Source: Hippasteria phrygiana (lineage: Eukaryota; Echinodermata; Asteroidea; Valvatida; Goniasteridae). From it: a stretch of DNA of 64,000 bases. Below are positions 30,500 through 47,739 of this stretch, piece by piece (the first letter of the stretch is position 1; each line of letters starts with the position of its first letter). The translations under genes were made by a program, and so were the position numbers. A model generated the notes under the pieces. It did no database searches. It saw only the letters and a program-made list of their open reading frames with translations, and was not told the origin of the DNA. The stretch lies in the NCBI GenBank assembly GCA_037893225.1, contig JAZGUH010000559.1, positions 620,001 to 684,000 of the forward strand, in the 5' to 3' direction.

Positions 30500-30504
30500 A
30501 TTGG
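30500..30504. repeat. target-site duplication ATTGG, left
   Basis: ATTGG directly before AGTAGTAGGG; the matching copy is at 46740-46744. Confidence 0.75.
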
Positions 30505-30905
30505 AGTAGTAGGGGATGGCCGATATCGGATCACTTTCAAAATTGCTGTATATACCCACACCAAATTTCTGTAAAAATTTGAAGAAAAAAAACCCTAAAA
30601 TCTCAAAACCCCAAATTTCTCTCTCTCTCCCTCTCTCTCTCTCGATTTCTCTCAAATTTCGCCGTATCTATCCACACCAAATTTTTATAAAAATAAAAAA
30701 AAAATTGGAAAAATATAGCGTTCTAAGACTCTTCTGATTTTTAACAAATTTCGTTGTATATACCCACAGCAAATTTTTGTAAAAATCGATAAAATCGAAC
30801 TATTTTTCCTACAGCCCCACCTGTATCATCATCATCTTAAAATTCTCGTGCAAAAAAAAAACCCAAAACCCCCAAACCTCTCTCTCTCTCTATATTTTAG
30901 CTATC
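30505..30905. repeat. left subterminal region with iterons
   Basis: About 400 bp of AT-rich sequence. The iteron GTATATACCCACACCAAATT occurs three times with small changes (near 30548, 30663 and 30755), and CT-rich microsatellites lie near 30619-30645 and 30881-30892. Related GTATATCTATCC/CAAAATTT motifs occur in the right end. Such iterons could be replication or integration sites; this is inference. Confidence 0.6.
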
Positions 30906-30960
30906 AAAAAAAATTAAATATTTTTTAATATTTTAAATAAAATAAACATCTATTATAAAG

Positions 30961-33900
30961 ATGGAAAACAGAATGATACCAGCGATAGGCTACACACGTT
31001 GGCCAAAATACTGCTTGAAAAAATACATCGACAAATACACCATTACGTTGGGCCCACCAACCGGACGCGATGGCGCATATATCAGACGAGACTTTCTATC
31101 GGCCATAAAAAAGAACGAGGGGATGTATAAAAATTTACGATCTAAGTCTAAAGAATCGTTAGAACATTTAATCGCGGATAAGCATATTCCGCTGGGCGAT
31201 CCTACTGGAAGAAGGGGTCAGCACATTAAAAAAGATTTAGAATCCGCCATACGACGATACTATAAAAAACCCGACGAAGAACTCGTCCCCCTGATTTTTA
31301 ACGAAACAGCTCCGAGACCATTCAGAAATTATTTACGTAATTACGAGATGAATATCGACAGAATTCTCGTAGATCCTCTAGCATTTTTTAATGAAAACGA
31401 GCAAAAAATTGTAGACGAATTGAAAGAAACACTAAACGAATTTAGAAGCTTTAAATTTCAACTCGCATTAAAAGCGGCGTTGAGAAAATATAATCTTGCG
31501 AACGATACTTTTGTCGAAGACACGAGCATGTTTTTTGGGTTTCAATCGACCGCATTAAACGAAGACGAAATAGAAAACCAAGTACGAGAACAGATAGAGT
31601 TCATAATCGAAAAAATAGAAAAATTTCAAACAAACGGAAGCGGCTGGGTCGTTTATGATTTAAAGGCGCTCTACATCAACGTTTCTAGATATCAGCCGAT
31701 AAGAGGCAGTTCCTACATTAAATTGCCCGAACACATAGCCCTTAAACTCGCAGTTGTAAACGTTAAAAATAAAGACCAACGATGTATCAGATGGGCGTTG
31801 AGAGCCGCCCTATCAAAATTTAAGCCCTCAGTCAAAGAATCGATTAAAAACAACCCCAACTATAAAATTAATTACTGTAGAACCACGATCTACGAAGAAG
31901 ATGATGGATTAGATTTTAAGAACGTAGCGTTTCCAACCCCCATCACGGATATTGACAAGATCGAAAAACAGAACAGTCTCGCCATTAACGTTTTTGGTTA
32001 CGAAAATAAAATTTTCCCGCTGAGAATAACTACTCAACGAAAACCGGTCATCAATCTACTGCTGTTTTCTCAAGGAGATAATAATCATTATTGTTGGATA
32101 AAAAACCTCGACCGTTTGTTGTCTAAAGAAACTAAACACGGCCACCACATCTATTTTTGTATGAGATGCCTACAACATTTTAGTAGACAAGATATTTCAG
32201 ACAGACACGAGATAGATTGTAGGGGCGTTAGCCAAACCCCGGCTTTAGCTGTATTACCCGACTCAACCAACAACGTTCTAAAATTCAAAAACTTTAAAAA
32301 TAAACAACCGGCGCCTTTTACTATATACGCCGACTTTGAAAGTATCTTAGTACCGCTACGCTCTACGCGAGTAGAACCAACGGACGAAGACGCGCGCACT
32401 AAAAAGACTCACGAACACGAAGCTTGCGGTTACGCTTATATTATAATCGGGCCCGACGGACGAGTCTTAGGCGATCCTCAAATTTATAGAGGAGCGAACG
32501 CGACATCACATTTCTTAAATCGTTTACTAGCCGAAAAAGACAAAATCAACGAAATATTCTCAAATCTTAAACCCATGATTTTTACGACCGAAGACGAGTT
32601 AGCTCATAACGACGCTAAAAATTGCTGGATTTGCGAGTACCCCCTTCAATACAAAATCAACACTTGCGAATGTACGCATCCGATAGATATAAATTTAGAT
32701 CATCTCGGTAAACAAACTAACGAAGAACTATTAGAAATAATCGCGGATAAACACATCGAGTTGGACGAACCAACGGGGGAAAAAGGTCGGTATATTAAAG
32801 TGGACTATATATCCGCTATAGAAAACAAGTTTTTAAAGGGGGACGAGCTCGAAGGGAAATGTCCAACAAAATTCTGCTATAGATGCGTCAAAAAGATTTG
32901 CGCGTTTAGAAAAGTAAGAGACCATTGTCACATCACCGGCAAGTATAGAGGAGCCGCACACATGTGCTGTAACTTAAAATTGCGAATCGTACCTAACAAA
33001 ACGACAATACCGGTCATCTTTCACAACTTAGAAAATTACGACGCCCATTTGATTATGCAGAGTATTTCGGAAACCGACGGAAAACTAAAGTGTATAGCTA
33101 AAACGTCCGAAAAATATATTTCATTTTCAATAGGTCAACTCAGATTTTTAGATTCATTTAATTTCTTATCCACGTCGTTGGAACGATTGGTAGCCGCTTG
33201 TCCGATAGACGCGTTTAAGTATATCGATAAAGCCACCGTCGGATATGCGACGAAGTCGACGATAGACCCGGAGCCGCGGGGTAAAGCGACGAAGACGACG
33301 ATAGACCTGGATGAAGACGAAGACGAAGTTAACGATTACAACGTAATCGGAAAACTGATAACCTACTTGGCAGAGTCTAACAGCCCCCTATCACCTTTGG
33401 GCGACGGTTACTTGGCAGAGTCTTCACCTTTGGACGAAGACGACGAAGCGTCACCCATCAGCCTCGATAAACGAGATCTTTTAATTAAAAAGGGTGTATA
33501 TCCCTACGAGTATATGAATAGCTTTGAACGATTTAACGAAACTGAACTTCCAGCTAAACATTATTTTTATAGCGGTCTAACGGATAAACACATAAGCGAC
33601 TCTGACTATGAACACGCTAAAAAAGTATGGCGGACCTTCGGCATCAAAAACTTGGGTGAATATCACGACCTCTACGTATTGACCGATGTACTATTACTAT
33701 CCAGCGTATTCGAGAATTTTAGAAAAATCTGTATAGCAAATTATAAGTTGGATCCGTGCCATTATTTTACATCACCCGGCCTAAGTTGGGACGCTTTATT
33801 AAAACACTCTAAAGCCAAATTAGAACTCTTGACCAATATAGATCAGCATTTATTTGTAGAGAAAGGAACCAGAGGGGGGATATCTAGCGTGGGCTCACTT

Positions 33901-35140
33901 CGCTACGCCGAGGCCAACAACTCATACCTAAAAGATTACGATCCGAGCAAACCCAACTCGTATATTTCGTATCTAGACGCCAACAACCTCTACGGATGGG
34001 CCATGAGTCAACCATTACCGATCTCAGACTTTAGGTGGATCGACGAAAAGAAATTAGGTTTGTTTACCGCCGAATATATATCGTCTCTAGCCGACGACTC
34101 TCTTTGGGGCTATATTCTTGAAGTGGATTTAGACTATCCAACCGAACTGCACGACTTACACAACGGTTATCCTTTAGCGCCCGTAAACCGAGTCATACCT
34201 TTAGAATCGATGAGTCCTTATCAGCTAGACTCGATGGAAAAAACAGACTCTAAACCGTCGAACGAAACTAAGTTGGTAGCGACGGGTGGACCGAGAAAGA
34301 ATTACGTACTTCATTATAGAAATCTAAAATTTTACCTCGCTCACGGTTTAGAACTAACTAAAGTACGTAGGGTTTTAAAGTTTACTCAAACGCCTTGGAT
34401 GAAAGCGAATGGATACTCACTTGTGTAGAGCCCACGAAGAAGATAAAATTCGTCGTCTGGTGGCTAAGCCCAATTACAACGGTAGGACAATTTTTGAACG
34501 CTGTAATCTATTAATGATAAACATGTATAAAACTCGAGTTGTTTTAAACAAACCCGTCTATTGCGGTATGAGTATTTTAGACTTATCGAAGCTTTTAATG
34601 TACGAATTTTATTACGATAAACTAAAAGTAAAATATGAAGACAAAGTCGATTTGATTTATACCGATACGGACTCGTTGCTCTTACGTATTGAAACTGAAG
34701 ACTTGTACAACGACATGGAAAAAGACAAAGACTCGTACGATTTTAGCAACTACGAGAAAGACCACTTTTTATACGACGATTCAAACAAGAAAATAATAGG
34801 CAAGTTCAAGGACGAATGCGGCGGAAAACCTATCAAAGAAGTGGTTTGCATCAGATCAAAAATGTACTCTATTTTCATGGACGATAAGAAGAACATTAAG
34901 AAATCAAAAGGAGTCAAAAAGTACGTCGTTTCCAACGCGATAACTCATCAAGATTATAAAGACTGCCTGTTTAACTCTAGAGTTTATCGACACGATATGA
35001 ACACGTTGAGGAGCGACAAACATATCGTGAACTCTTTAACTCAAAATAAGGTATCGCTCAATCCTAGAGACGACAAACGGTATATCTTAGACGATGGAAT
35101 TCATACTCTGATGCACGATCATTATCGAACAAACGTTTAA
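30961..35140 (+). pseudogene. polB: family B DNA polymerase, left copy, disrupted
   Basis: The left-arm copy of the polymerase. The first open part (30961-34428, 1155 codons) holds SAP-like repeats, a C2H2-like finger, the exonuclease motif YADFES (about residue 456), the endonuclease-VII-like DHCHITGKYRG segment and motif A (DANNLYGWAM, about 1004). Compared with the right copy, 116 bp are missing after 34402, at a GAAA microhomology. This removes 38 codons including the motif B region and shifts the frame to an early stop. The rest, including motif C (YTDTDSL), stays open from 34409 to 35140. Full polymerase activity is therefore not expected from this copy. It differs from the right copy by scattered substitutions and one cluster near 31690-31900. 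Confidence 0.88.
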
Positions 35141-35310
35141 AAAATCGTTATACAGGCTGCCTAGCTACGCTCGTAGGGCGTACGACCGATTAAAAAAATA
35201 CGTCGTATAGGAATACACCAGAAATTCAAAAAATCATCAGATTTCAAAAGGGAAACCCCCTTTATGATAAAAAATGAGAAAAAAAAATAAAATAATTATA
35301 TATATAAATC
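35141..35310. promoter_or_regulatory. intergenic region with TATA-like sequence
   Basis: It contains the element-specific repeat CTAGCTACGCTCGTAGGGCG (35161-35180) and, directly before the next start codon, TATATATATAAATC. The same arrangement precedes the death-domain gene in the right arm, so both genes share one promoter sequence. Confidence 0.55.
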
Positions 35311-35814
35311 ATGTGCAAGTGGTTAAACATCGGAAAGCTAACTACGTGCGAAAAAGATGGAGACCCGTGGTGTCTCGATCATTTCGGCAGACGAGATCTA
35401 ACGCCCAAACCGTGTTTAATTTGTGGCTGCGGAACTAAATCAACTACGCAACTTTGTACGAATCATTCTTTAAAAGAAAGACAGCGACTAGAACGCATCG
35501 AAAAGCTGGCTAAAACCAAGTATAAAAGAGTTATAAAAGAACTCTACTTTAAATTTAACCCCGAAAAATGTCGATGTTCTTGGTTACTTTGTAGTAGCTC
35601 AAAACGCTGTAATAAGCCAACTGCTAAGTCTGACCCTATATATTGCACTTTGCACGCGGATCGTTTAAAAAAACTCGGTAGAGCCTTAACCCCCTGCGGC
35701 CGCTGTGGTCGTGGTACTTTTTCTAAAAATGGTAATTGCACCAAGTGTAATAAAATTGAACACTGTGGTTTTAAAGCTTATTCAAAACAGATATACGAAT
35801 ATCGAAATATTTAG
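35311..35814 (+). CDS. Cys-rich zinc-binding protein (167 aa), unknown function
   Basis: I do not recognise a named family. Three C..C..C-x2-H modules are visible: Cys2, Cys13 and Cys21-x2-His24; Cys35/38/40 with Cys49-x2-His52; and a Cys87-100 cluster with Cys112-x2-His115. A zinc-ribbon-like CGRCGRGTFSKNGNCTKC follows (about 129-146). A basic helix (about 54-80) separates the second and third. This suggests nucleic-acid or protein binding. The first residues (MCKWLNIGK) are identical to those of the death-domain protein because the inverted arm runs through the start codon. It stands between polymerase and PCNA on the same strand. The stop codon lies inside another copy of the short CTCGTAGGGTGTAC repeat. 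Confidence 0.75.
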   Translation: MCKWLNIGKLTTCEKDGDPWCLDHFGRRDLTPKPCLICGCGTKSTTQLCTNHSLKERQRLERIEKLAKTKYKRVIKELYFKFNPEKCRCSWLLCSSSKRCNKPTAKSDPIYCTLHADRLKKLGRALTPCGRCGRGTFSKNGNCTKCNKIEHCGFKAYSKQIYEYRNI

Positions 35815-35838
35815 CGTAGCTACACTCGTAGGGTGTAC
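35812..35838. repeat. element-specific short repeat
   Basis: GCGTAGCTACACTCGTAGGG and following GTGTAC. It overlaps the stop of the Cys-rich gene. Other copies are at about 35161, 41689, 41906, 42041 and 44981, and a decayed one at 32350. Confidence 0.7.
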
Positions 35839-35897
35839 TAGTATACGACTAGACCTACAAAAATTAAAATTAAAAAGTATAAACGTATAAACGTAAA

Positions 35898-36656
35898 ATG
35901 AGCTGCGAAATATTTAACGTGACCATAATGAACGGTTATATTCTAAAGTCTGTTATAGATATGCTGAGTTCTTTTATGCAAAAAACTCAATTTAGGATAG
36001 ATAATACCGGTTTATATCACGTATACTACGACGAAAATACAAACGTTTTCGTAGATATAGTATTTCCTAGACATCAATTCTTCAAATTTGATTATACAAA
36101 AAATAAACCAACGTGTTTCTTTCTAAATTTAAAGCATTTACAAAAAATTACAAAAAGTATAAAACGTAAAGAATCTGTAGATTTGAAAATGACAGCGGAT
36201 AACTTAATTATCACTGTTTATAACGATTACACCAGTTCTAAAGTATATAAAATCGTTATAGGATTGATAGAAGAATGCGAAAAAACTCAAATACCTAGCA
36301 AAGACCACTACTTTGAAGCTAAGGTTATAGAAAGCGTTTGTTTTTCTAAAATCAAATATATGATAAACATGAGTAAATCGTTAGACTTGCGCGTACATAA
36401 AAATTATTTATCTATCTATTGCAAAGAAGGTCAGTTGTATAGTTCTTCTTTAAATATTGGAATTAAAGATGACTTTCCGTTATACGATTGTGCGTTCGAT
36501 AGCAAAAATATCGGGGTAATATTAAAAATATGTAATTTAGAAAAGCAGATTCAAATATTTGCCCCAAAAGATGAAGACGATCCTCTTAAAATTGCTATAT
36601 TAGCCGGTAATTTAGGAGTCGTAACTTTGTATATAAAAAGACTAGCTATTTCGTAG
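35898..36656 (+). CDS. PCNA-like sliding clamp protein
   Basis: A 252-residue protein, the usual length of PCNA. Support is the overall pattern: an N-terminal F..TIMNGYILKSVIDMLSS helix, an FRIDNTGLYHVYYDE strand pair, LKHLQKITKSIKRKESVDLK, and the C-terminal DDPLKIAILAGNLGVVTLYI, which corresponds to the PCNA PL-I..LG..T.Y motif. Clamps encircle DNA and hold polymerases. In poxviruses a PCNA-like fold also serves in late transcription (VLTF-1), so a transcription role with the neighbouring VLTF3 is possible. The gene ends tail-to-tail with VLTF3, overlapping it by 11 bp. Homology is remote and judged by pattern only. Confidence 0.78.
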   Translation: MSCEIFNVTIMNGYILKSVIDMLSSFMQKTQFRIDNTGLYHVYYDENTNVFVDIVFPRHQFFKFDYTKNKPTCFFLNLKHLQKITKSIKRKESVDLKMTADNLIITVYNDYTSSKVYKIVIGLIEECEKTQIPSKDHYFEAKVIESVCFSKIKYMINMSKSLDLRVHKNYLSIYCKEGQLYSSSLNIGIKDDFPLYDCAFDSKNIGVILKICNLEKQIQIFAPKDEDDPLKIAILAGNLGVVTLYIKRLAIS

Positions 36657-37157
36657 GAATCCATTTCCAACCTAGGTACTCGAAAGCTTTCATCATAGCT
36701 TCTTCGTGTTCCTCTTCTTTTATTTTTGTTTTTAAAATGTAAAAATCGCTCTTTTTACACTTGTAAGAATTTTTTTGTAATAATTTGTATAATTTATAAT
36801 TTACGTTCAACGAATTTATCCTAACGTTATTATTATTACAATATCGTAAAGCTTCTTCTAATTTATCAAAATCTACCAATAAAACGTCGAGATATTTACT
36901 TATGTCCGGACATTTTATTCCGGTGATTAGATTATAAATTAAATTTATATCGTCGTAAAAACTTCCCAGATTGTTTTCTGACAAAAACATATAAACTTGA
37001 TCTTTAGTGATGCAATTTTTATCTCGCATATTCGCCGATAATTTGTGATGTTTTATTTCGTTATTTATAATTTTTACGACGTTAAATATTTTCGTTTGAT
37101 CTACGTTTTGATCTCCTTGAAATGTTTTAATAGCGTCTCTAAAATGACCCTTTCTAG

Positions 37158-39651
37158 TGTCACAGGTTGTCCCAACGTTTAATGGGTTCCTGCTAGGTTC
37201 GTAGTTTTGTTAAAGGAACTTTGCTCAGAAATAAATCCACACGGACAGCAAGTTATTACGTTGATCCTCTTTCTCGGGATAAAATGTTGTAATTCAATAT
37301 TCATCACCCCAAGGTCATCACAAAAAATATACAGTGCATACAACAATAGAATTGAGGATAAGAAATAAATCAAATGGTGCAGTTCAGTTCAGTTCAGAAG
37401 CCAAATCAGTGAGTAATCCCAATTGAATGAATGTCTTGAATCGCTAAACAATAATTAAAATTTGACTACATCCATGAGCAATAAACTCAATCCGAAAAAT
37501 GTAAAATAAAGAAGTACCTTGAATCGAATAGGCACAGGAATTACTAAATAAACAAGGGTTCATCCAGTTAGGATTAGCACTGATATGGTACACGATAATT
37601 CAATTAGAAACAAAATGGCAAATACATCATATTATAAATACAGGTTATGGATCTTAGCTGGGTTTTCTGGCGCTTGCATCAGAACTTGGGTGTGGCTTGA
37701 TGGACTTGACTGAGGCTTGACACGGGGGTGGCTCCGAGTCCGAAGATCAGGGTTCAGGCACACAAACCGAGTTCCGATGATATCACGAACAGGGGAATGG
37801 GACAGGTGTGTGGGGAGGCGAACCGGGTCGGCTCCCCAAAGCATGACCTATATGGAAAGTACTCTCTGTATCAGCAGAGCACAATGGTGAGGGTGAGAAT
37901 GGCTATCATTAGAAACGACTTTAGGGAAAGTACAACGTTCCTAATAGTGTAAACGGGCACTCAATCTGAACAGCCTTCTCACCAGAGGTCTTAATCGCTT
38001 TCTGAATTATCGAGGATCAACATATTTGTATACAGAACTAAAAATCTAAAAGCAATATCTCTAACTAAAATATGAAACGCTTAAAAGAATGCTTACAAAA
38101 AAAGGAAAGAGGTCAAACTGCATATCCTTTTGGGATGTTCGCCCAGAACACATTTTCAGTGGAATGATACTTTCAGCTAACTATACATTGATCGAAAGTT
38201 CACCCAGAACATGATAACCACAATCAGTACTCCGCACAGTGGTAAATACCATAAAATGCTAATCAAAACATCAGGGAATAATTGACTTAGCGGAAAAAAA
38301 CAATTGTGTTGGCCTATAGCGCATTGCGGTAGCCTTACTCAAGGTCATCCTGGGGCAAGTTCCATGTGGTTTGTACACACTCGCTGTACACAATTAATAG
38401 TCAGCAGGATGTCACGGGACATAACAGAAAAGGAAGGTAATGTGTAGGCCTATACACACGCAATTTGGAAGACAATCAAAATATTGGAAATCTCGTGAAC
38501 AAGACCAGTTAATTTACGGAAAAACGTGCATGTATGAATTATTGTTCATGTCATACGAATGATCAAAGTTTTAGGCCACGAGGTATCATATAAAAAAGTA
38601 TGCAACAAGAATATTCAAAGTAATCGGAAATCAACCAAGAGGAAAATATAATTGTACACGGACTGAGAGTATAGTGACCGATTTAAGTGAATACTGCAGT
38701 CATGACAGAATGGTAATCGGCAATCACAAATGGATCTTCCAATACTATCGGGAAATCAATGATATACAAAACCGAACATGATAATTTCGGTCAATAAATA
38801 ACAGCAAAAGTGACATCGATCAAGAGTCGACCAAATATCAGCAATATAATACAAGTAAATACAGGGTACAAGGCAAAAAAGGTTAATAGCTGAAGGCAAA
38901 CGAATGCTGACTCAATATACTCATATTGGGGTTGTTCCACCCATCTTGAGATTGTCTCAAACCGAGTCAACATAATTCAAAATACAAAGTGTCCTGCACA
39001 TAAGTCAAATGGTAATAGGAAATACAAACTTCTTTTATACAATGAAAATAGGCTTACCTGTATCAGCAGAGCACAATGGTGAGGGTGAGAATGGCTATCA
39101 TTAGAAACGACTTTAGGGAAAGTACAACGTTCCCAATAGTGTAAACGGGCACTCAATCTGAACAGCCTTCTCACCAGAGGTCTTAATCGCTTTCTGAGGA
39201 GAATCCGGCGATCGGGGGGGAATATTATTCCTTGACCACGCGCTCTGCCCATTTCGGTGGAACAATCTCATTGGTCAAAATTATGAAACCAGGCAGATAT
39301 TCCACCTTGGGATGGAGAGTGGCCAATCAGAAAGTTACTGACTACACGTGTTAGACATGGTCATAAAATGGCAGACAGCCATAACAGTTTTAGCCAGTGG
39401 CATAAAATGTAGCCATGTTGGCTGGGTTCTCTGGCCACATCCCCATCTGGTCAATTACTTATCTGTGTTGAGACAAAGGGGTCGTCTTAGCCACATATGG
39501 ACTTGGTCAACTTAGGGGTAAAATCTGCTACTGGGTGCTAATTAAATTTACTGGAACATAGAGGTGGACCATGCTTCGAAATCGTGGGAACTTTTCCTGT
39601 CGGACCAAGTGTTAAAATGGCAGTAAGGGGGAATTTTAACAGGGGCTGACA
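37158..39651. mobile_element. 2494-bp insert, probable solo LTR
   Basis: It begins TGTCACAGGTTGTCC and ends GGGGCTGACA, with CTAG on both sides (37154-37157, 39652-39655; CTAGT if one base is allowed). TG...CA ends with a 4-5 bp duplication fit an LTR. It has no coding frame and no second LTR, so a solo LTR is the best guess. A non-autonomous DNA element with short TGTCA/TGACA ends is the alternative. Its composition is like the host DNA and unlike the surrounding element. Confidence 0.65.
37866..39197. repeat. 140-bp direct repeat inside the insert
   Basis: The 140-bp block at 37866-38005 (CTGTATCAGCAGAGCACAAT onward) recurs at 39058-39197 with one visible change. The spacing is 1192 bp. 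It is an internal duplication within the LTR-like insert. Confidence 0.8.
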
Positions 39652-40189
39652 CTAGTATACGTATATTTATTGGATAAATTCGCTCTATCTACGTCTTTAA
39701 AACTAGGGCAGAAATCTATAATATTCTGTTCGGTCTTGCATACTGAACAATACGTCCCATCCTCGTCTCTTATAAAGTTCGTATTTCCACATTCGCAGTA
39801 GATGGGCTGAGTTTTTAATAACGCCAAGTCGATATCTATATATTTCGACGCAATCAGTAAATAGTCTCGTTTTATTTTTTGTCTTTTGTCCGAATCGTTT
39901 TTATAACTGAGAGACTTTTTATAACCGCTGTTTTTCCACCGATCGAAAATTTCGCAAGTTTGCCAAATGAAACAAAATTGTTGATGACTCGATAAACTGT
40001 TTAGAATTTTTAAATTTAAATTAGCGATATCTATGGTAGCATCGATCTCCATCATTTAAAGAGCGCGATAATTCAATTAACAACTTTTTTATAACGTTAA
40101 ACGATAAAGTCTTCGCCAGAATCGTTTGGCTCGTAAAGTTTAAACGTTGACTCTTTTATATTATAGCACGAAAAAAAAGAGCGATATAG

Positions 40190-40920
40190 TAGATTCTTTG
40201 ATCTATAGATGACCTATAGATGAACTATAGATGAACTGTAGATGAGCTATAGATGAACTGTAGATAACTGATAGATGACCTATAGATGAACTATAGATGA
40301 ACTGTAGATGAGCTGTAGATGAACTGTAGATAACTGATAGATAACTGATAGATAACTGATAGATAACTGATAGATAACTGATACATGAACTGTAGATGAA
40401 TTATAGATAACTGATAGATAACTGATAGATGACTTATAGATAACTGATAGATAACTGATAGATAACTGATAGATGAACTGTAGATGAATTATAGATAACT
40501 GATAGATAACTGATAGATGACTTATAGATGACCTATAGATGAATTATAGATGAATTATAGATAACTGATAGATGACTGATAGATAACTGATAGATAACTG
40601 ATAGATAACTGATAGATGACTTATAGATGACTTATAGATGAACTGTAGATGAACTATAGATGAATTATAGATGAATTATAGATAACTGATAGATAACTGA
40701 TAGATGACTTATAGATGACTTATAGATGAACTGTAGATGAACTGTAGATGAATTATAGATAACTGATAGATAACTGATAGATAACTGATAGATGACTGAT
40801 AGATAACTGATAGATAACTGATAGATAACTGATAGATGACTTATAGATGACTTATAGATAACTGATAGATGACTTATAGATGACTTATAGATGAACTGTA
40901 GATGAACTATAGATGAACTT
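40190..40920. repeat. 11-bp minisatellite array
   Basis: About 65 tandem units of 11 bp with a few variants: GATAACTGATA, GATGACTTATA, GATGAACTGTA, GATGAATTATA, GATGACCTATA. The variants form mixed blocks such as runs of GATAACTGATA. The array lies between the 3' end of the death-domain gene and the 5' region of VLTF3, within the central unique part of the element. Confidence 0.9.
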
Positions 40921-40937
40921 ATACTCGGTTTTTATTT

Positions 40938-41831
40938 TCAAAAGACATCGTTATACGCTATAGCTAAATCCGATCTGCCTATCTGGTGCATGATGCGCCG
41001 AAATATAGTATTTATATCGTCGTAACCTCTATGGTCTGAATAAAATTTATAACAGGTCATAAAAGCTTTTTCGGTCGTTTTTTTATAATCGGCATCTATT
41101 TGTTCTACGCAATTATAGTTCATTCCAGCGTATGTACAAAATTGTCTCCAATCTATACCTAATTCATCGGCTAGTTTCGTTAAAGTATCCATTATACCTC
41201 GTTTATCTTTACTTATTAAATAAGTCGGTGTCAACGGACCCATATATCCATATTTTACGTCGTCAGCGATATTTCTAGATCTAGTTTCGAAGAATTTCAA
41301 CTTGTAAGTATATAGAGTTAGTCCGGAGCTGATCAAGATCTTCTTGAGATCTTGTTTATAGTCTTTATCGAAACACGCCTTGAGATACCAAATATACGTT
41401 ATCATTCTAACTTTTGTATAATGATCATATTTAGACGACTTGATGTACTCTAAGAATTCTACATTTATTCCCATAAAGATCGCGACCTTTTCCATATGTT
41501 GTATAACGGCTTTAGTCGCAATTTCGTCCAATAAGAAAAATATATTTTTTTCGTGGTCCGCTATAATTTTTGGCATTTTTATATTCTCGTCGTATAGTAT
41601 ACACTTGTTCGCTACGTCTACAAAAATATCGTAATATTCGTCCGTTACGTTTAAATTAGTTGGTCTCGTTGCGCTACTAGTCTTTAAAGTACTCGCGTAG
41701 CTACGTTCGTAGAATGTATCGAAAGAGGTTACGTTACTTAAAGAACGATCTACACGATCCAAAGGTGTCGCAAAAAATCCAGTATTGAAATCGCACGTAG
41801 TTGGCTTTCCGATGTTTAACCACTTGCACAT
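40938..41831 (-). CDS. tandem death-domain protein
   Basis: A 297-residue protein. Residues about 213-293 form a death domain: MDTLTKLADELGIDWRQFC, then CVEQIDADYK, a helix with FMTCYKFYSDH, and the hallmark IFRRIMHQIGRSDLA. Residues about 103-172 (AVIQHMEKVAIFMGINVEFL ... DLKKILISSGL) look like a second, weaker death-fold domain. Death domains form homotypic complexes in apoptosis and innate immune signalling. A viral copy would be expected to bind or block host adaptors; this is inference. The N-terminus MCKWLNIGK is shared with the Cys-rich protein. The segment YERSYAST (about 41-48) is encoded by the short element-specific repeat. No signal peptide or membrane segment is visible. Confidence 0.8.
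   Translation of the reverse strand: MCKWLNIGKPTTCDFNTGFFATPLDRVDRSLSNVTSFDTFYERSYASTLKTSSATRPTNLNVTDEYYDIFVDVANKCILYDENIKMPKIIADHEKNIFFLLDEIATKAVIQHMEKVAIFMGINVEFLEYIKSSKYDHYTKVRMITYIWYLKACFDKDYKQDLKKILISSGLTLYTYKLKFFETRSRNIADDVKYGYMGPLTPTYLISKDKRGIMDTLTKLADELGIDWRQFCTYAGMNYNCVEQIDADYKKTTEKAFMTCYKFYSDHRGYDDINTIFRRIMHQIGRSDLAIAYNDVF
41689..41717. repeat. element-specific short repeat inside the death-domain gene
   Basis: GTACTCGCGTAGCTACGTTCG, read in frame on the minus strand as part of YERSYAST. Confidence 0.7.
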
Positions 41832-42096
41832 GATTTATATATATAATGTTTTTTTTTTTTTTCTCATTTTTTATCGTAAAGGGGGTTTCCCTTTTGAAAT
41901 CTGTTGTACTCGCGCAGCTATACTCGTAGAGTGTATTCCTTTCCGACGTATTTTTTTATCGTAAAGGGGGTTTCCCTTTTGAAATCTGATGATTTTTGAA
42001 TTTCTGGTGTATTCCTATACGACGTATTTTTTTACTCGGTCGTACGCCCTACGAGCGTAGCTTCGCGAGTAGCTAGGCAGCCTGTATAACGATTTT
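41832..42096. promoter_or_regulatory. intergenic region with TATA-like sequence, right arm
   Basis: Read on the minus strand, TATATATATAAATC directly precedes the start codon of the death-domain gene. Two copies of the short repeat (41906-41935 and 42041-42072) and a duplicated GTAAAGGGGGTTTCCC block are present. Confidence 0.55.
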
Positions 42097-45000
42097 TTAA
42101 ACATTTGTTCGATAATGATCGTGCATCAGAGTATGAATTCCATCATCTAAGATATACCGTTTGTCGTCTCTAGGATTGAGCGATACCTTATTTTGAGTTA
42201 AAGAGTTCACGATATGTTTGTCGCTCCTCAACGTGTTCATATCGTGTCGATAAACTCTAGAGTTAAAGAGGCAGTCTTTATAATCTTGATGAGTTATCGC
42301 GTTGGAAACGACGTACTTTTTGACTCCTTTTGATTTCTTAATGTTCTTCTTATCGTCCATGAAAATAGAGTACATTTTTGATCTGATGCAAACCACTTCT
42401 TTGATAGGTTTTCCGCCGCATTCGTCCTTGAACTTGCCTATTATTTTCTTGTTTGAATCGTCGTATAAAAAGTGGTCTTTCTCGTAGTTGCTAAAATCGT
42501 ACGAGTCTTTATCCTTTTTCATGTCTTTGTACAAGTCTTCAGTTTCAATACGTAAGAGCAACGAGTCCGTATCGGTATAAATCAAATCGACTTTGTCTTC
42601 ATATTTTACTTTTAGTTTATCGTAATAAAATTCGTACATTAAAAGCTTCGATAAGTCTAAAATACTCATACCGCAATAGACGGGTTTGTTTAACACAACT
42701 CGAGTTTTATACATGTTTATCATTAATAGATTACAGCGTTCAAAAATTGTCCTACCGTTGTAATTGGGCTTAGCCACCAGACGACGAATTCTATCTTCTT
42801 CGTGGGCTCTACACAAGTGAGTATCCATTCGCTTTCTAACGTCTTCCATAGTTTTGCCAAATACCGAGTTGTTCATCAATTTAAAAAAGTCTTTTTCAAA
42901 ATCGGATTTAGCTTCTTTTCTGAGTTGGGTATTTTTATCGATGTAAGATTTCATCCAAGGCGTTTGAGTAAACTTTAAAACCCTATGTACTTTAGTTAGT
43001 TCTAAACCGTGAGCGAGGTAAAATTTTAGATTTCTATAATGAAGTACGTAATTCTTTCTCGGTCCACCCGTCGCTACCAACTTAGTTTCGTTCGACGGTT
43101 TAGAGTCTGTTTTTTCCATCGAGTCTAGCTGATAAGGACTCATCGATTCTAAAGGTATGACTCGGTTTACGGGCGCTAAAGGATAACCGTTGTGTAAGTC
43201 GTGCAGTTCGGTTGGATAGTCTAAATCCACTTCAAGAATATAGCCCCAAAGAGAGTCGTCGGCTAGAGACGATATATATTCGGCGGTAAACAAACCTAAT
43301 TTCTTTTCGTCGATCCACCTAAAGTCTGAGATCGGTAATGGTTGACTCATGGCCCATCCGTAGAGGTTGTTGGCGTCTAGATACGAAATATACGAGTTGG
43401 GTTTGCTCGGATCGTAATCTTTTAGGTATGAGTTGTTGGCCTCGGCGTAGCGAAGTGAGCCCACGCTAGATATTCCCCCTCTGGTCCCTTTCTCTACAAA
43501 TAAATGCTGATCTATATTGGTCAAGAGTTCTAATTTGGCTTTAGAGTGTTTTAATAAAGCGTCCCAACTTAGGCCGGGTGATGTAAAATAATGGCACGGA
43601 TCTAATCCGTAATTTGCTATACAGATTGTTCTAAAATTCTCGAATACGCTGGATAGTAATAGTACATCGGTCAATACGTAGAGGTCGTGATATTCACCCA
43701 AGTTTTTGATGCCGAAGGTCCGCCATACTTTTTTAGCGTGTTCATAGTCAGAGTCGCTTATGTGTTTATCCGTTAGACCGCTGTAAAAAGATTCTTTCGG
43801 CGGTAGAGTAGTTTCGCTAAATCGTTCAAAGCTGTCCATATACTCGTACGGATATACACCCTTTTTAATTAGAAGATCTCGTTTATCGTGGCCGATGGGT
43901 GGCGCTTCGTCGTCTTCGTCCAAAGGTGAAGACTCTGCCAAGTAACCATCGCCCAAAGGTGATAGGGGACTGTTAGACTCTGCCAAGTAGGTTATCAGTT
44001 TTCCGATTACGTTGTAATCGTTAACTTCGTCTTCGTCTTCATCCGGGTCTATCGTCGTCTTCGTCGCTTTATCCCGCGGCTCTGGGTCTATCGTCGACTT
44101 CGTCGCATAGCCGACGGTGGCTTTATCGATATACTTAAACGCGTCTATCGGACAAGCGGCTACCAATCGTTCCAACGACGTGGATAAGAAATTAAATGAA
44201 TCTAAAAATCTGAGTTGACCTATCGAAAATGAAATATATTTTTCGGACGTTTTAGCTATACACTTTAGTTTTCCGTCGGTTTCCGAAATACTCTGCATAA
44301 TCAAATGGGCGTCGTAATTTTCTAAGTTGTGAAAGATGACCGGTATTGTCGTTTTGTTAGGTACGATTCGCAATTTTAAGTTACAGCACATGTGCGCGGC
44401 TCCTCTATACTTACCGGTGATGTGACAATGGTCTCTTACTTTTCTAAACGCGCAAATCTTTTTGACGCATCTATAGCAGAATTTTGTCGGATATTTCCCT
44501 TCGAGCTCGTCCTCCTTTAAAAACTTGTTTTCTATAGCGGATATATAGTCCGCTTTAATATACCGACCTTTTTCCCCCGTTGGTTCGTCCAACTCGATGT
44601 GTTTATCCGCGATTATTTCTAATAGTTCTTCGTTAGTTTTTTTACCGAGATGATCTAAATTTATATCTATCGGATGCGTACATTCGCAAGTGTTGGTTTT
44701 GTATTGAAGGGGGTACTCGCAAATCCAGCAATTTTTAGCGTCGTTATGAGCTAACTCGTCTTCGGTCGTAAAAATCATGGGTTTAGGATTTGAGAATATT
44801 TCGTTGATTTTGTCTTTTTCGGCTAGTAAACGATTTAAGAAATGTGATGTCGCGTTCGCTCCTCTATAAATTTGAGGATCGCCTAAGACTCGTCCGTCGG
44901 GCCCGATTATGATATATGCATAACCGCAAGCTTTATGTTCGTGAGTCTTTTTAGTGCGCGGGGGTTCTTGTGGCACTTGCGTACTCGCGTAGCTACACTC

Positions 45001-46407
45001 GTAGGGTGTAGAGGGTACTAAGATACTTTCAAAGTCGGCGTATATAGTAAAAGGCGCCGGTTGTTTATTTTTAAAGTTTTTAAATTTTAGAACGTTGTTG
45101 GTTGAGTCGGGTAATACCGCTAAAGCCGGGGTTTGGCTAACGCCCCTACAATCTATCTCGTGTCTGTCTAAAATATCTTGTCTACTAAAATGTTGTAGGC
45201 ACCACGTACAAAAATATTTGCGTCCGTTGTGTTTAGTTTCGTTGGATAGTAAACGGCTTAGGTTTTTTATCCAACAATAATGATTATTGTCTCCTTTAGA
45301 AAACAGCAGTAGATTGATGACCGGTTTTCGTTGAGTAGTTATTCTCAGCGGGAAAATTTTATTTTCATAACCAAAAACGTTAATGGCGAGACTGTTCTGT
45401 TTTTCGATCTTGTCAATATCTGTGATGGGGGTTGGAAACGCTACGTTCTTAAAATCTAATCCATCATCTTCTTTGAAGATGGAATTCCTTTCGTAGTGAA
45501 TAGTATAGTTGGGGTTGTTTTTAATCGATTCTTTGACAGAGGGAGTAAATAATCCTAAGGCGGCTCTCAACGCCCATCTGATACACTCCTGATCTTCGTT
45601 TTTAACGTTGACGACTGCCTTTTTATGGATTATGTGAGGGGGTAGTGGAATGTAAGAAGAACCTCTTATCGGTTGGTAATTAGAAACGTTGATATAGAGC
45701 GCCTTTAAATCGTAAACGACCCAACCGCTTCCGTTTGTTTGAAATTTTTCTATTTTTTCGATTATGAACTCTATCTGTTCTCGTACTTGGTTTTCTATTC
45801 CGTCTTCGTTTAATGCGGTCGATTGAAACCCAAAAAACATGCTCGTGTCTTCAACAAAAGTATCGTTCGCAAGATTATATTTTCTCAACGCCGCTTTTAA
45901 TGCGAGTTGAAATTTAAAGCTTCTAAATTCGTTTAGTGCGCCTTTCAATGTTTCTACAATTTTTTGCTCGTTTTCATTAAAAAATGCTAGAGGATCTACG
46001 AGAATTCTGTCGATATTCATCTCGTAATTACGTAAATAATTTTTGAATGGTCTCGGAGCCGTTTCGTTAAAAATCAAGGGGACGAGTTCTTCGTCGGGTT
46101 TTTTATAGTATCGTCGTATGGCGGATTCTAAATCTTTTTTAATGTGTTGACCCCTTCTTCCAGTAGGATCGCCCAGCGGAATATGCTTATCCGCGATTAA
46201 ATGTTCTAACGATTCTTTAGACTTAGATCGTAAATTTTTATAAAGTGCTTCGTTCTTTTTTATGGCCGATAGAAAGTCTCGTCTGATATATGCGCCATCG
46301 CGTCCAGTTGGTGGGCCCAACGTAATGGTGTATTTGTCGATGTATTTTTTCAAGCAGTATTTTGGCCAACGTGTGTAGCCTATCGCTGGTATCATTCTGT
46401 TTTCCAT
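42097..46407 (-). CDS. polB: family B DNA polymerase, right copy, intact (1436 aa)
   Basis: A replicative polymerase of the large PolB family found in Polinton/adinto-like elements and in many animal genomes. Order of parts: two SAP/HeH-like repeats (about 22-50 and 70-97, with PTGRDGAYIRRD and PTGRRGQHIKKD); a C2H2-like finger (about 397-418); the exonuclease motif YADFES (about 457); a third SAP-like repeat (about 598-626); an endonuclease-VII-like zinc segment CYRCVKK...DHCHITGKYRGAA (about 642-672); Exo II HNLENYDAHL (about 692); Exo III YHDLYVLTDV (about 905); motif A DANNLYGWAM (about 1009); motif B with NNSVFGK (about 1175); and motif C YTDTDSL (about 1277). No frameshift or stop is present. 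The start follows TATTATAAAG. The segment YECSYAST just after the Exo I motif is encoded by the short repeat. Confidence 0.92.
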   Translation of the reverse strand: MENRMIPAIGYTRWPKYCLKKYIDKYTITLGPPTGRDGAYIRRDFLSAIKKNEALYKNLRSKSKESLEHLIADKHIPLGDPTGRRGQHIKKDLESAIRRYYKKPDEELVPLIFNETAPRPFKNYLRNYEMNIDRILVDPLAFFNENEQKIVETLKGALNEFRSFKFQLALKAALRKYNLANDTFVEDTSMFFGFQSTALNEDGIENQVREQIEFIIEKIEKFQTNGSGWVVYDLKALYINVSNYQPIRGSSYIPLPPHIIHKKAVVNVKNEDQECIRWALRAALGLFTPSVKESIKNNPNYTIHYERNSIFKEDDGLDFKNVAFPTPITDIDKIEKQNSLAINVFGYENKIFPLRITTQRKPVINLLLFSKGDNNHYCWIKNLSRLLSNETKHNGRKYFCTWCLQHFSRQDILDRHEIDCRGVSQTPALAVLPDSTNNVLKFKNFKNKQPAPFTIYADFESILVPSTPYECSYASTQVPQEPPRTKKTHEHKACGYAYIIIGPDGRVLGDPQIYRGANATSHFLNRLLAEKDKINEIFSNPKPMIFTTEDELAHNDAKNCWICEYPLQYKTNTCECTHPIDINLDHLGKKTNEELLEIIADKHIELDEPTGEKGRYIKADYISAIENKFLKEDELEGKYPTKFCYRCVKKICAFRKVRDHCHITGKYRGAAHMCCNLKLRIVPNKTTIPVIFHNLENYDAHLIMQSISETDGKLKCIAKTSEKYISFSIGQLRFLDSFNFLSTSLERLVAACPIDAFKYIDKATVGYATKSTIDPEPRDKATKTTIDPDEDEDEVNDYNVIGKLITYLAESNSPLSPLGDGYLAESSPLDEDDEAPPIGHDKRDLLIKKGVYPYEYMDSFERFSETTLPPKESFYSGLTDKHISDSDYEHAKKVWRTFGIKNLGEYHDLYVLTDVLLLSSVFENFRTICIANYGLDPCHYFTSPGLSWDALLKHSKAKLELLTNIDQHLFVEKGTRGGISSVGSLRYAEANNSYLKDYDPSKPNSYISYLDANNLYGWAMSQPLPISDFRWIDEKKLGLFTAEYISSLADDSLWGYILEVDLDYPTELHDLHNGYPLAPVNRVIPLESMSPYQLDSMEKTDSKPSNETKLVATGGPRKNYVLHYRNLKFYLAHGLELTKVHRVLKFTQTPWMKSYIDKNTQLRKEAKSDFEKDFFKLMNNSVFGKTMEDVRKRMDTHLCRAHEEDRIRRLVAKPNYNGRTIFERCNLLMINMYKTRVVLNKPVYCGMSILDLSKLLMYEFYYDKLKVKYEDKVDLIYTDTDSLLLRIETEDLYKDMKKDKDSYDFSNYEKDHFLYDDSNKKIIGKFKDECGGKPIKEVVCIRSKMYSIFMDDKKNIKKSKGVKKYVVSNAITHQDYKDCLFNSRVYRHDMNTLRSDKHIVNSLTQNKVSLNPRDDKRYILDDGIHTLMHDHYRTNV
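44981..45010. repeat. element-specific short repeat inside polB
   Basis: GTACTCGCGTAGCTACACTC and following GTAGGGTGTA. It is read in frame within the right polymerase as YECSYAST. The left polymerase has a shorter, altered remnant at the same place (about 32350-32372). Confidence 0.7.
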
Positions 46408-46462
46408 CTTTATAATAGATGTTTATTTTATTTAAAATATTAAAAAATATTTAATTTTTTTT

Positions 46463-46739
46463 GCCCCAAGAATTTAGAGTGAGATTTTTTGTAGCTCAGG
46501 AGGCCCATAAGAACGTAGTTCGGGGGGGGTAAACGACAAAAAAACTCTCTTATTTTCTAGATTTTCTAGATGTATAGATATACACCAACATCTTGCTTAA
46601 TTTTAGATGATTTTTAGATGATTTTTAGATGATTTTGGAATTCCAAATCCCTCTAAATTTTGGTGTATATCTATCCAGCAAAATTTGAGAGATTTACATT
46701 TTTAAAAAGGTGGGGTAATATTCTCCTTTCCCTACTACT
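46463..46739. repeat. right subterminal region
   Basis: About 275 bp outside the right arm. It includes triple TTAGATGATTTT (about 46605-46633) and TGTATATCTATCCAGCAAAA, related to the left-end iterons. It ends CCCTACTACT. Confidence 0.6.
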
Positions 46740-46744
46740 ATTGG
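46740..46744. repeat. target-site duplication ATTGG, right
   Basis: ATTGG directly after CCCTACTACT; it matches 30500-30504. Confidence 0.75.
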
Positions 46745-47071: not shown

Positions 47072-47739
47072 CTATTTGCTCAATTTGATAACATACAAAA
47101 AATACTCTGTACCAAATGCACAGCCAATATCTTGAAAAGTCATGGAAGCCTGATTTCTGTCGACATCAGTTAATCGAAGAGCCTCTTCAAGAAACGTGAG
47201 TCTCACGTCAGGATCCTCATCTGAAAACTGCAGGAATGTTCCCTGTGGCACCAACACCCGAACAGTCTCACTGAATGATGCCAGTGCAAGACTGCAATTG
47301 TTACTGTGCAGCATTGCATCAAATGTGCCCTTCTCAAACACTAAGTCAAACTGGTTGCTTCTGAAGGGAAGTCTGCTCGCATCACCCACCACAAACTGGA
47401 CAGACTGCTTCTCGGATGGGTGGGTTTTTTTGGACATTGACCGTGCCTGTTCGACTGCATCCAAGGCAAAATCTGTGCTGACTATGCTCATGGTATCACT
47501 CTTGTCTTTCAGTAGGCAACTTGAAAGAGTTGAAGTTCCGCAGCCAAGTTCAAGGACGTTTGTTACTTGAAAGATTTGTTTGTTGGTCTTTCCTGGGTGG
47601 GTGTAATTTTCAAGCCACTGATTGGCTACATCGTGAGAGAAGAACCAATCAAATGGTTGATCACTGACTGCCTTCTTCCTCGCATAGAAATCGTCCCAAT
47701 ATGTCTTCTTGCCCATATCACCTCTGTGATAATCTTGTG
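47072..47739 (-). CDS. CSKMT: citrate synthase-lysine N-methyltransferase (METTL12 type), last exon
   Basis: A class I S-adenosylmethionine methyltransferase of 214 residues from the ATG at 47716. In mammals CSKMT trimethylates a lysine of mitochondrial citrate synthase. Visible motifs: KTYWDDFYARK and FDWFFSHD at the N-terminus, motif I VLELGCGTSTL (about 54-64), ST-DFALDAV (about 81-89), VVGDASRLP, FDLVFEKGTFDAML (about 124-137) and the family hallmark QFSDEDPDVRL (about 164-174). The reading frame continues upstream of the ATG to a strong acceptor (TTTTACAAACAG, exon start 47739). An upstream exon with the mitochondrial presequence is therefore likely. I did not find it. Confidence 0.85.

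Follow-up and report, generated by a model that had tools for sequence, protein, structure and literature searches.

A probable satellite lineage of Polintons with two inverted left ends in the genome of Hippasteria phrygiana

Polintons (Mavericks) are positioned close to the base of many groups of DNA viruses that infect eukaryotes, and their textbook target duplication is 6 bp. Adenoviruses give rise to defective symmetric (copy-back) genomes, in which both ends come from the left end of the protein-primed linear genome. Transpovirons are linear plasmids and virophages encode capsids. Both are treated as small satellites associated with larger DNA viruses (PMC3671162, PMC11464507), the adenovirus packaging domain is placed at the left end (PMC5033970), and adintovirus-like elements of Amoebidium are reported to combine VLTF3 with a PolB closest to that of adintoviruses, complete ones being about 30 kb long with minor and major capsid genes (PMC11244446). 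Here we describe an element that carries PolB and VLTF3 between Polinton-like ends and is probably a satellite of Polintons. It lies in a 64,000 nt stretch of the Hippasteria phrygiana genome (GCA_037893225.1, contig JAZGUH010000559.1, positions 620,001-684,000, forward strand), which is called the window and supplies the position numbers used below. The assembly (G000) comprises 944 Mb in 1285 contigs, and loci on other contigs are named C199, C433 and so on.

The element occupies positions 30505-46739 (16,235 bp) and has AGTAGTAGGG ends, read directly in the sequence. At the left junction agggATTGG is followed by AGTAGTAGGGG, and at the right junction CCCTACTACT is followed by ATTGGtac, the duplicated ATTGG lying at 30500-30504 and 46740-46744. 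Comparison of the two sides delimits long inverted arms (about 30905-35351, forward; about 41791-46463, reverse), which are 93-98% complementary in their main segments and 82-99% in the innermost pieces. The right arm contains PolB as an open frame of 1436 amino acids (aa) at 42097-46407, reverse strand, which was used in the search for relatives; the left copy (30961-35140, forward) is broken into frames at 30961-34428 and 34409-35140 by an internal deletion that, compared with the right arm, removes about 112 nt. Between the polymerases lie the cysteine-rich CKWLN gene of 167 aa (35311-35814, forward), given this working name because its product starts MCKWLN; a PCNA-like clamp of 252 aa (35898-36656, forward; Pfam PCNA_N 5.9e-8, PDB clamps 3.6e-8); VLTF3 on the reverse strand; an 11-bp tandem array of about 65 copies (40204-40923); and a death-domain gene of 297 aa (40938-41831, reverse; Pfam Death 1.1e-4). 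A 2494-bp passenger transposon (37158-39651; TGTCA...TGACA ends, CTAG duplication) interrupts VLTF3, separating a C-terminal part (36646-37157; Pox_VLTF3 4.8e-18 in Pfam over 36646-37029) from an N-terminal part with zinc-type cysteines (39652-40055), as seen from the sequence and from comparison of loci. A sequence-only reading had described a complete 16-kb element with defined ends, these four kinds of virus-like gene and no capsid or integrase; the ends, the duplication and the two inverted PolB arms were confirmed, but the size includes the passenger, and without the insertion and its duplication the element measures about 13.7 kb, a usual size in the family.

Outside the arms, the left end is of an L subtype beginning with AGTAGTAGGGG (30505-30904, forward), with 39 other matches at 91-98% identity among the 40 of 135 candidates scored. 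The right end is of an R subtype (46464-46739, reverse), which over its inner 200 bp shares 75-81% identity with another group of ends, among them those of a Polinton on C433. Apart from short stretches, these two outermost ends (about 400 and 276 bp) show no alignment to one another, and both recur as subtypes in other copies, so the window copy is a mosaic.

A search of the assembly for copies with the same ends and gene order, the check proposed in the sequence-only reading, found a family. The clamp gave 118 matches, 58 of them at places 92-100% identical to the window gene, and 55 of the 58 contain no stop. VLTF3 lies within 8 kb of the clamp at 57 of the 58 places, RPB5 within 8 kb at 23 and the death-domain gene within 10 kb at 42. 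At least 17 end pairs enclose a clamp, a lower bound since scoring covered 40 candidate ends out of 159 in one search and 40 out of 135 in the other. Sixteen span about 12.3-16.7 kb and 11 of the 17 fall at 13.2-13.9 kb; they comprise the window copy, C199, C693 and C229 (13.3-13.5 kb), C515 (13.7 kb), and C261, C869, C883, C20, C276, C529, C331, C174, C814, C850 and C607 (about 12.3-16.7 kb), the seventeenth being a 39-kb pair on C182. Ten end pairs were read at base level, eight of them with a clamp and two (C860 and C272) from clamp-less sisters; in nine of the ten the 5-bp duplication is perfect, and these nine lie at separate sites. Adding the window copy, the C199 copy (GGGGG, a simple run) and the two Polintons described below brings the tally to 13 perfect 5-bp duplications among 14 pairs, where chance would give about 0.001 per pair, and all 14 have AGTAGTA ends. 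The lone exception is C869, in which the host flanks themselves form a 2,762-bp inverted repeat of 99.8% identity (L066, L038), either a real palindrome or an assembly artefact.

The absence of capsid, packaging ATPase and integrase was examined in the copies read, namely the window copy and C199 end to end, C869, C515, C529 and C378 from the death-domain gene to the right end, and C261:2316000 through the centre. With tblastn, proteins of a Polinton from the same genome, including the two integrase pieces of C433, found no capsid, ATPase or integrase in the window element, the whole of C199 or the right parts of C869, C515, C529 and C378, and the open reading frames ORF446, ORF142 and ORF329 from the right side of that Polinton likewise had no match in these copies. 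Pfam gave no rve match in the eight window frames scanned. In copies of 13.2-13.9 kb the whole length is taken up by the two arms, about 4.9 kb each, together with a centre of known genes. As for a virophage-type capsid, the Polinton-type capsid queries had no match in the copies read, and no separate search with virophage capsids was made. Nothing among C199, C869, C515, C529, C378 and C261:2316000 indicates that the element is one half of a larger capsid-coding virus.

Several of the genes are under purifying selection, which is strong in the clamp and VLTF3. Pooled ratios of nonsynonymous to synonymous variation (pN/pS) were 0.144 for the clamp (30 of 30 loci, these being the 30 best matches), 0.103 for VLTF3 (16 same-length open frames from 30 loci) and 0.130 for RPB5 (4 frames). 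Values were higher for PolB, at 0.357 (6 frames; the C199 copy contributes two, of which a frameshift shortens one), and for the death-domain gene, at 0.466 (10 frames, one from a Polinton); CKWLN, at 0.605 (16 of 30 loci), is weakly constrained. Values near 0.1 in the clamp and VLTF3 suggest that these proteins matter for the spread of the element. The arms of a single copy are also very alike. Over 481-648 PolB positions they diverge by 0-0.31% in C199, C869, C515, C378 and C261 and by 1.08% in the window copy, against 1.2-15.2% between copies, and over the whole arm (about 4.9 kb) those of C199 are 99.9% identical.

Polintons of the same genome were read for comparison. The one on C433 (L033/L034) is 15.7 kb long, with AGTAGTATGTAAAGGAG ends, inverted repeats of about 290 bp and a GAAGC duplication. 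Its PolB is 69-77% identical to that of the element at the DNA level and its CKWLN gene 78% identical. It carries two integrase pieces (the first with rve 6.8e-6 and IS481 7.7e-5, the second 0.11), an A32-type ATPase (2.4e-5, above the cut-off) and, next to the ATPase gene, a tandem array of 11-bp units akin to the one in the element; no protease was recognised in the frames scanned. It also encodes a 398-aa putative major capsid protein (MCP), so labelled from its likeness to Polinton capsids and otherwise from its position beside the ATPase. The C204 Polinton (L035/L036; 13.2 kb) is decayed, with AGTAGTAGGGAAAGGAG ends, 200-bp repeats, an ACTAT duplication and pieces of MCP and ATPase, and over its N-terminal part its PolB is 82-85% identical to that of the element. 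On C257 a death-domain gene (296 aa) directly follows PolB, where C433 has CKWLN, and a putative MCP gene lies 5.9 kb beyond. A putative MCP gene was scored within 12 kb at 6 of 46 death-domain places without a close clamp. The putative MCP has 1056 first-look places, and the 104 scored are all 96-100% identical, a very large and apparently young burst of this putative Polinton capsid gene. PolB had been thought the only component common to the element and Polintons; this is incorrect, as the CKWLN gene, the death-domain gene, the 11-bp tandem array and terminal sequence are common to both as well.

The element thus resembles Polintons and adintoviruses in its related-family PolB, AG...CT ends, terminal inverted repeats and short target duplication, and its CKWLN and death-domain genes recur in Polintons of the same genome. 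It differs in that the copies read gave no match to a capsid, packaging ATPase or integrase, in that each repeat is about 4.9 kb long and contains PolB (about 290 bp in C433, 200 bp in C204), and in having PCNA, VLTF3 and RPB5 in its centre. The duplication of 5 bp departs from the textbook length, although 5 bp is also the length in the two Polintons read. From the Amoebidium elements, with which it has the pairing of PolB and VLTF3 in common, it is set apart by their size of about 30 kb and their capsid genes. Like transpovirons and virophages it would be a small satellite of a larger DNA virus, but its PolB and ends are of Polinton type and a giant-virus helper seems improbable.

In architecture the element parallels the copy-back genomes of adenoviruses. 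Left sides of Polintons in this genome read PolB-CKWLN (C433) or PolB-death domain (C257), and both arms of the element therefore resemble the left ends of Polintons. The C433 Polinton has PolB and its neighbour on the left side only; in the element both sides look like such left sides, in inverted orientation, and the right-side genes are gone. Both ends of the element thus correspond to left-side orders of Polintons (for C257, one whose outer terminus was not identified), as a copy-back origin entails. As in adenovirus copy-back genomes, both ends appear to come from the left end, structural genes are lost and terminal origins are kept. Unlike them, the element occupies dozens of integration sites marked by target duplications, has selected genes of its own and is heritable, not a transient by-product. 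By analogy, a copy-back or symmetric architecture turned into a heritable lineage is the best reading of its structure.

We accordingly favour, with a probability of about 0.7, the interpretation that Polintons gave rise to the element, a non-autonomous satellite lineage that has its own polymerase and is inserted by Polinton proteins in trans. This builds on the architecture, the ends, the 5-bp duplications, the copy number, the selection on genes and the matching left-side gene order in Polintons of the same genome. A Polinton genome would have lost the half with capsid, ATPase and integrase and gained a second, inverted left end; the centre holds the PCNA-like clamp, the giant-virus-type VLTF3 and, in 23 of 58 copies, RPB5. 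Replication may proceed on a linear form of the element through its PolB, putatively protein-primed, with assistance from the clamp, and in such a form the ends could be renewed from one another, keeping the arms alike. Near-identity of the arms within a copy alongside divergence between copies would follow if every new copy arises by way of such a linear intermediate. Polinton integrase could act in trans on ends of the same kind, Polinton capsids might conceivably package the element, since the end that bears the packaging signal in adenovirus is present in it twice, and VLTF3 and RPB5 might adjust late-gene transcription. Of the two options raised in the sequence-only reading, a capsid-less satellite using a Polinton integrase in trans and a rearranged endogenous virus of a new group, the former is favoured by the multi-copy family, the fixed ends, the 5-bp duplications, the selected genes, the lack of any capsid or integrase found and the presence of Polintons that have a putative capsid gene, an integrase and the same kind of ends, the use in trans itself being inferred.

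Several points weigh against this interpretation. The rve match of C433 is below the Pfam cut-off, with the second integrase piece not significant, and searches of Pfam, NCBIfam, PDB and viral contigs lent no support to the putative MCP. For C257, the part that was read revealed no outer terminus. Even the nearest PolB among the Polintons read differs by 15-18% at the DNA level, so these Polintons are candidate helpers only. No scored putative MCP lies within 25 kb of a clamp in any of the 58 copies (0/58), an incomplete test because 104 of the 1056 putative MCP places were scored. The selection counts favour intact copies (30 best matches; open frames only) and lean towards constraint. In the window copy the arms are only about 95-97% identical over their whole length, and the arm identity of C869 may have another cause, as its flanks are a 2.76-kb inverted repeat.

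A fuller version of the satellite interpretation, which we think rather improbable, would have the element inherited and also packaged in Polinton capsids, its PCNA, VLTF3 and RPB5 being captured giant-virus genes and its death-domain protein an adaptor, with the element either parasitising the host or defending it against large DNA viruses. The death-domain protein begins with the CKWLN leader residues. Its Death match is barely above the Pfam cut-off (22.7 against 22.6 bits), and its best match in PDB (0.5) is not significant. Single-sequence structure prediction gave a mean predicted local distance difference test score (pLDDT) of 39.7 for this protein and 31.7 for the clamp, too low for fold comparison; the six C-terminal helices of the death-domain model would fit a death fold, but at that score are no proof.

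A different possibility, which we think unlikely, is that the element is an autonomous capsid-less transposon that inserts itself with no helper, through an enzyme not recognised as such, for instance the zinc region of PolB that resembles endonuclease VII, or the CKWLN protein. PolB does have a weak Endonuclease_7 match (0.034 in Pfam, 0.0013 in PHROGs), CKWLN had no known match in profile scans and the family has many copies. Among 8000 candidates scored, 5178 PolB relatives were found at E <= 0.001; many of the 120 listed carry PF03175 and many also PF02945, the latter in keeping with self-insertion, and those of the 120 with names are from animals, Elysia and Oculina. The Pfam scan of the 1436-aa window PolB gave no PF03175 match; exonuclease and polymerase motifs were picked out in it by eye. 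Self-insertion is opposed by the presence of a related PolB and CKWLN in a Polinton that also carries an integrase, by ends and 5-bp duplications that match those of the Polintons read and are explained by an rve integrase, and by the weak constraint on CKWLN (pN/pS 0.605).

We consider it still less probable that the element is a virophage- or transpoviron-like satellite whose helper is a nucleocytovirus and not a Polinton, with VLTF3, RPB5 and PCNA fitted to a cytoplasmic factory. VLTF3 is unbroken in C199, where it forms a single open frame of 303 aa, with other intact frames of about 303 aa elsewhere, and it is 38-60% identical to 120 listed VLTF3 proteins, including 51% to that of Marseillevirus LCMAC102 (P0024). 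This one match names a giant virus and another (P0030) is named archaeal; in a tree, VLTF3 sits on a long branch (1.15) in a weakly supported position beside unnamed proteins. RPB5, found at 34 places, is clearly identified (profile 9.1e-20, PDB 2.9e-18). Interactions among virophages, Polinton-like viruses and giant viruses have been described (PMC12945077, PMC11464507). However, the Polinton-like ends and left-side genes point elsewhere, and VLTF3 also occurs in the capsid-bearing adintovirus-like elements of Amoebidium (PMC11244446), and so is no proof of a giant-virus helper. The NCLDV (nucleocytoplasmic large DNA virus) capsid PF04451 had no match in the genome, though a control search likewise matched nowhere. 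In a large protein database, none of 233 word-sharing candidates for the clamp reached 1e-3. The sequence-only reading attributed the clamp and VLTF3 to nucleocytoplasmic viruses; only VLTF3 is clearly of giant-virus type, and such an origin of the clamp, as of RPB5, is no more than possible. Viral contigs scanned with PolB, the putative MCP, PCNA, RPB5 and VLTF3 contained no relative, such single-sequence queries reaching close relatives only, and PHROGs and NCBIfam scans added little.

That segmental duplication has multiplied degenerate Polinton fragments, or that inverted reads were misassembled, is very improbable: equal-score pairs on one contig (C210, C607) look duplicated and the host flanks of C869 are palindromic, but 13 of the 14 end pairs lie at target sites of their own, perfectly duplicated over 5 bp, which largely refutes this reading, independent copies with their own duplications speak against the assembly error considered in the sequence-only reading, and purifying selection is strong and gene order is kept at dozens of places.

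The family also includes variant forms. RPB5 occurs beside the clamp at 23 places and at 11 without a close clamp. On C860 and C272 (L043, L045) are clamp-less sisters with the same kind of arms and RPB5, C272 having two protein-identical RPB5 genes. The idea that the RPB5 of these two is exchangeable cargo was dropped in view of the counts just given, and RPB5-bearing clamp-less copies are more simply a deletion variant or a clamp-less sub-family. A 12.0-kb end pair at C529:798430-810417 (L044, 803500-807000), with CKWLN, the death-domain gene and a short clamp remnant in its centre, is a deletion derivative, and the ends 39 kb apart around a clamp at C182:1358534-1397935 may reflect a nested insertion or a larger form. 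In an older branch, C261:2316000-2325999 (L037), the clamp is about 72% identical and the arms extend past CKWLN to take in the clamp gene's first 182 nt, which indicates that the arm boundary moves; no death-domain match was present in the stretch read, and the death-domain side may stem from a later exchange with a Polinton left side. The passenger transposon of the window contains a 140-bp direct repeat, has no match in 29 other loci compared and has no ATG-started frame of at least 100 aa. To the right of the element, a methyltransferase-like open frame of 214 aa at 47072-47716 is, judged by eye, probably a host gene.

In the titles and beginnings of abstracts of the open-licence literature no capsid-less Polinton satellite with duplicated left ends was found, and no self-sustaining satellite of Polintons turned up there. 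Passages of PMC11071296, PMC4028283, PMC3671162, PMC6431247, PMC11244446, PMC2836005 and PMC5033970 describe no such element. If the fuller version of the satellite interpretation is true, the element would be a third party in the web of Polintons, giant viruses and hosts, and symmetric defective genomes would be able to found stable, selected lineages. The genome of H. phrygiana offers a natural pair, many places with a putative Polinton capsid gene together with dozens of capsid-less followers that have the same kind of ends. Such a pair makes testable whether Polintons act in trans, whether they form particles in animals and how satellites of protein-primed viruses originate, as well as why the element keeps giant-virus-type transcription genes under strong selection.

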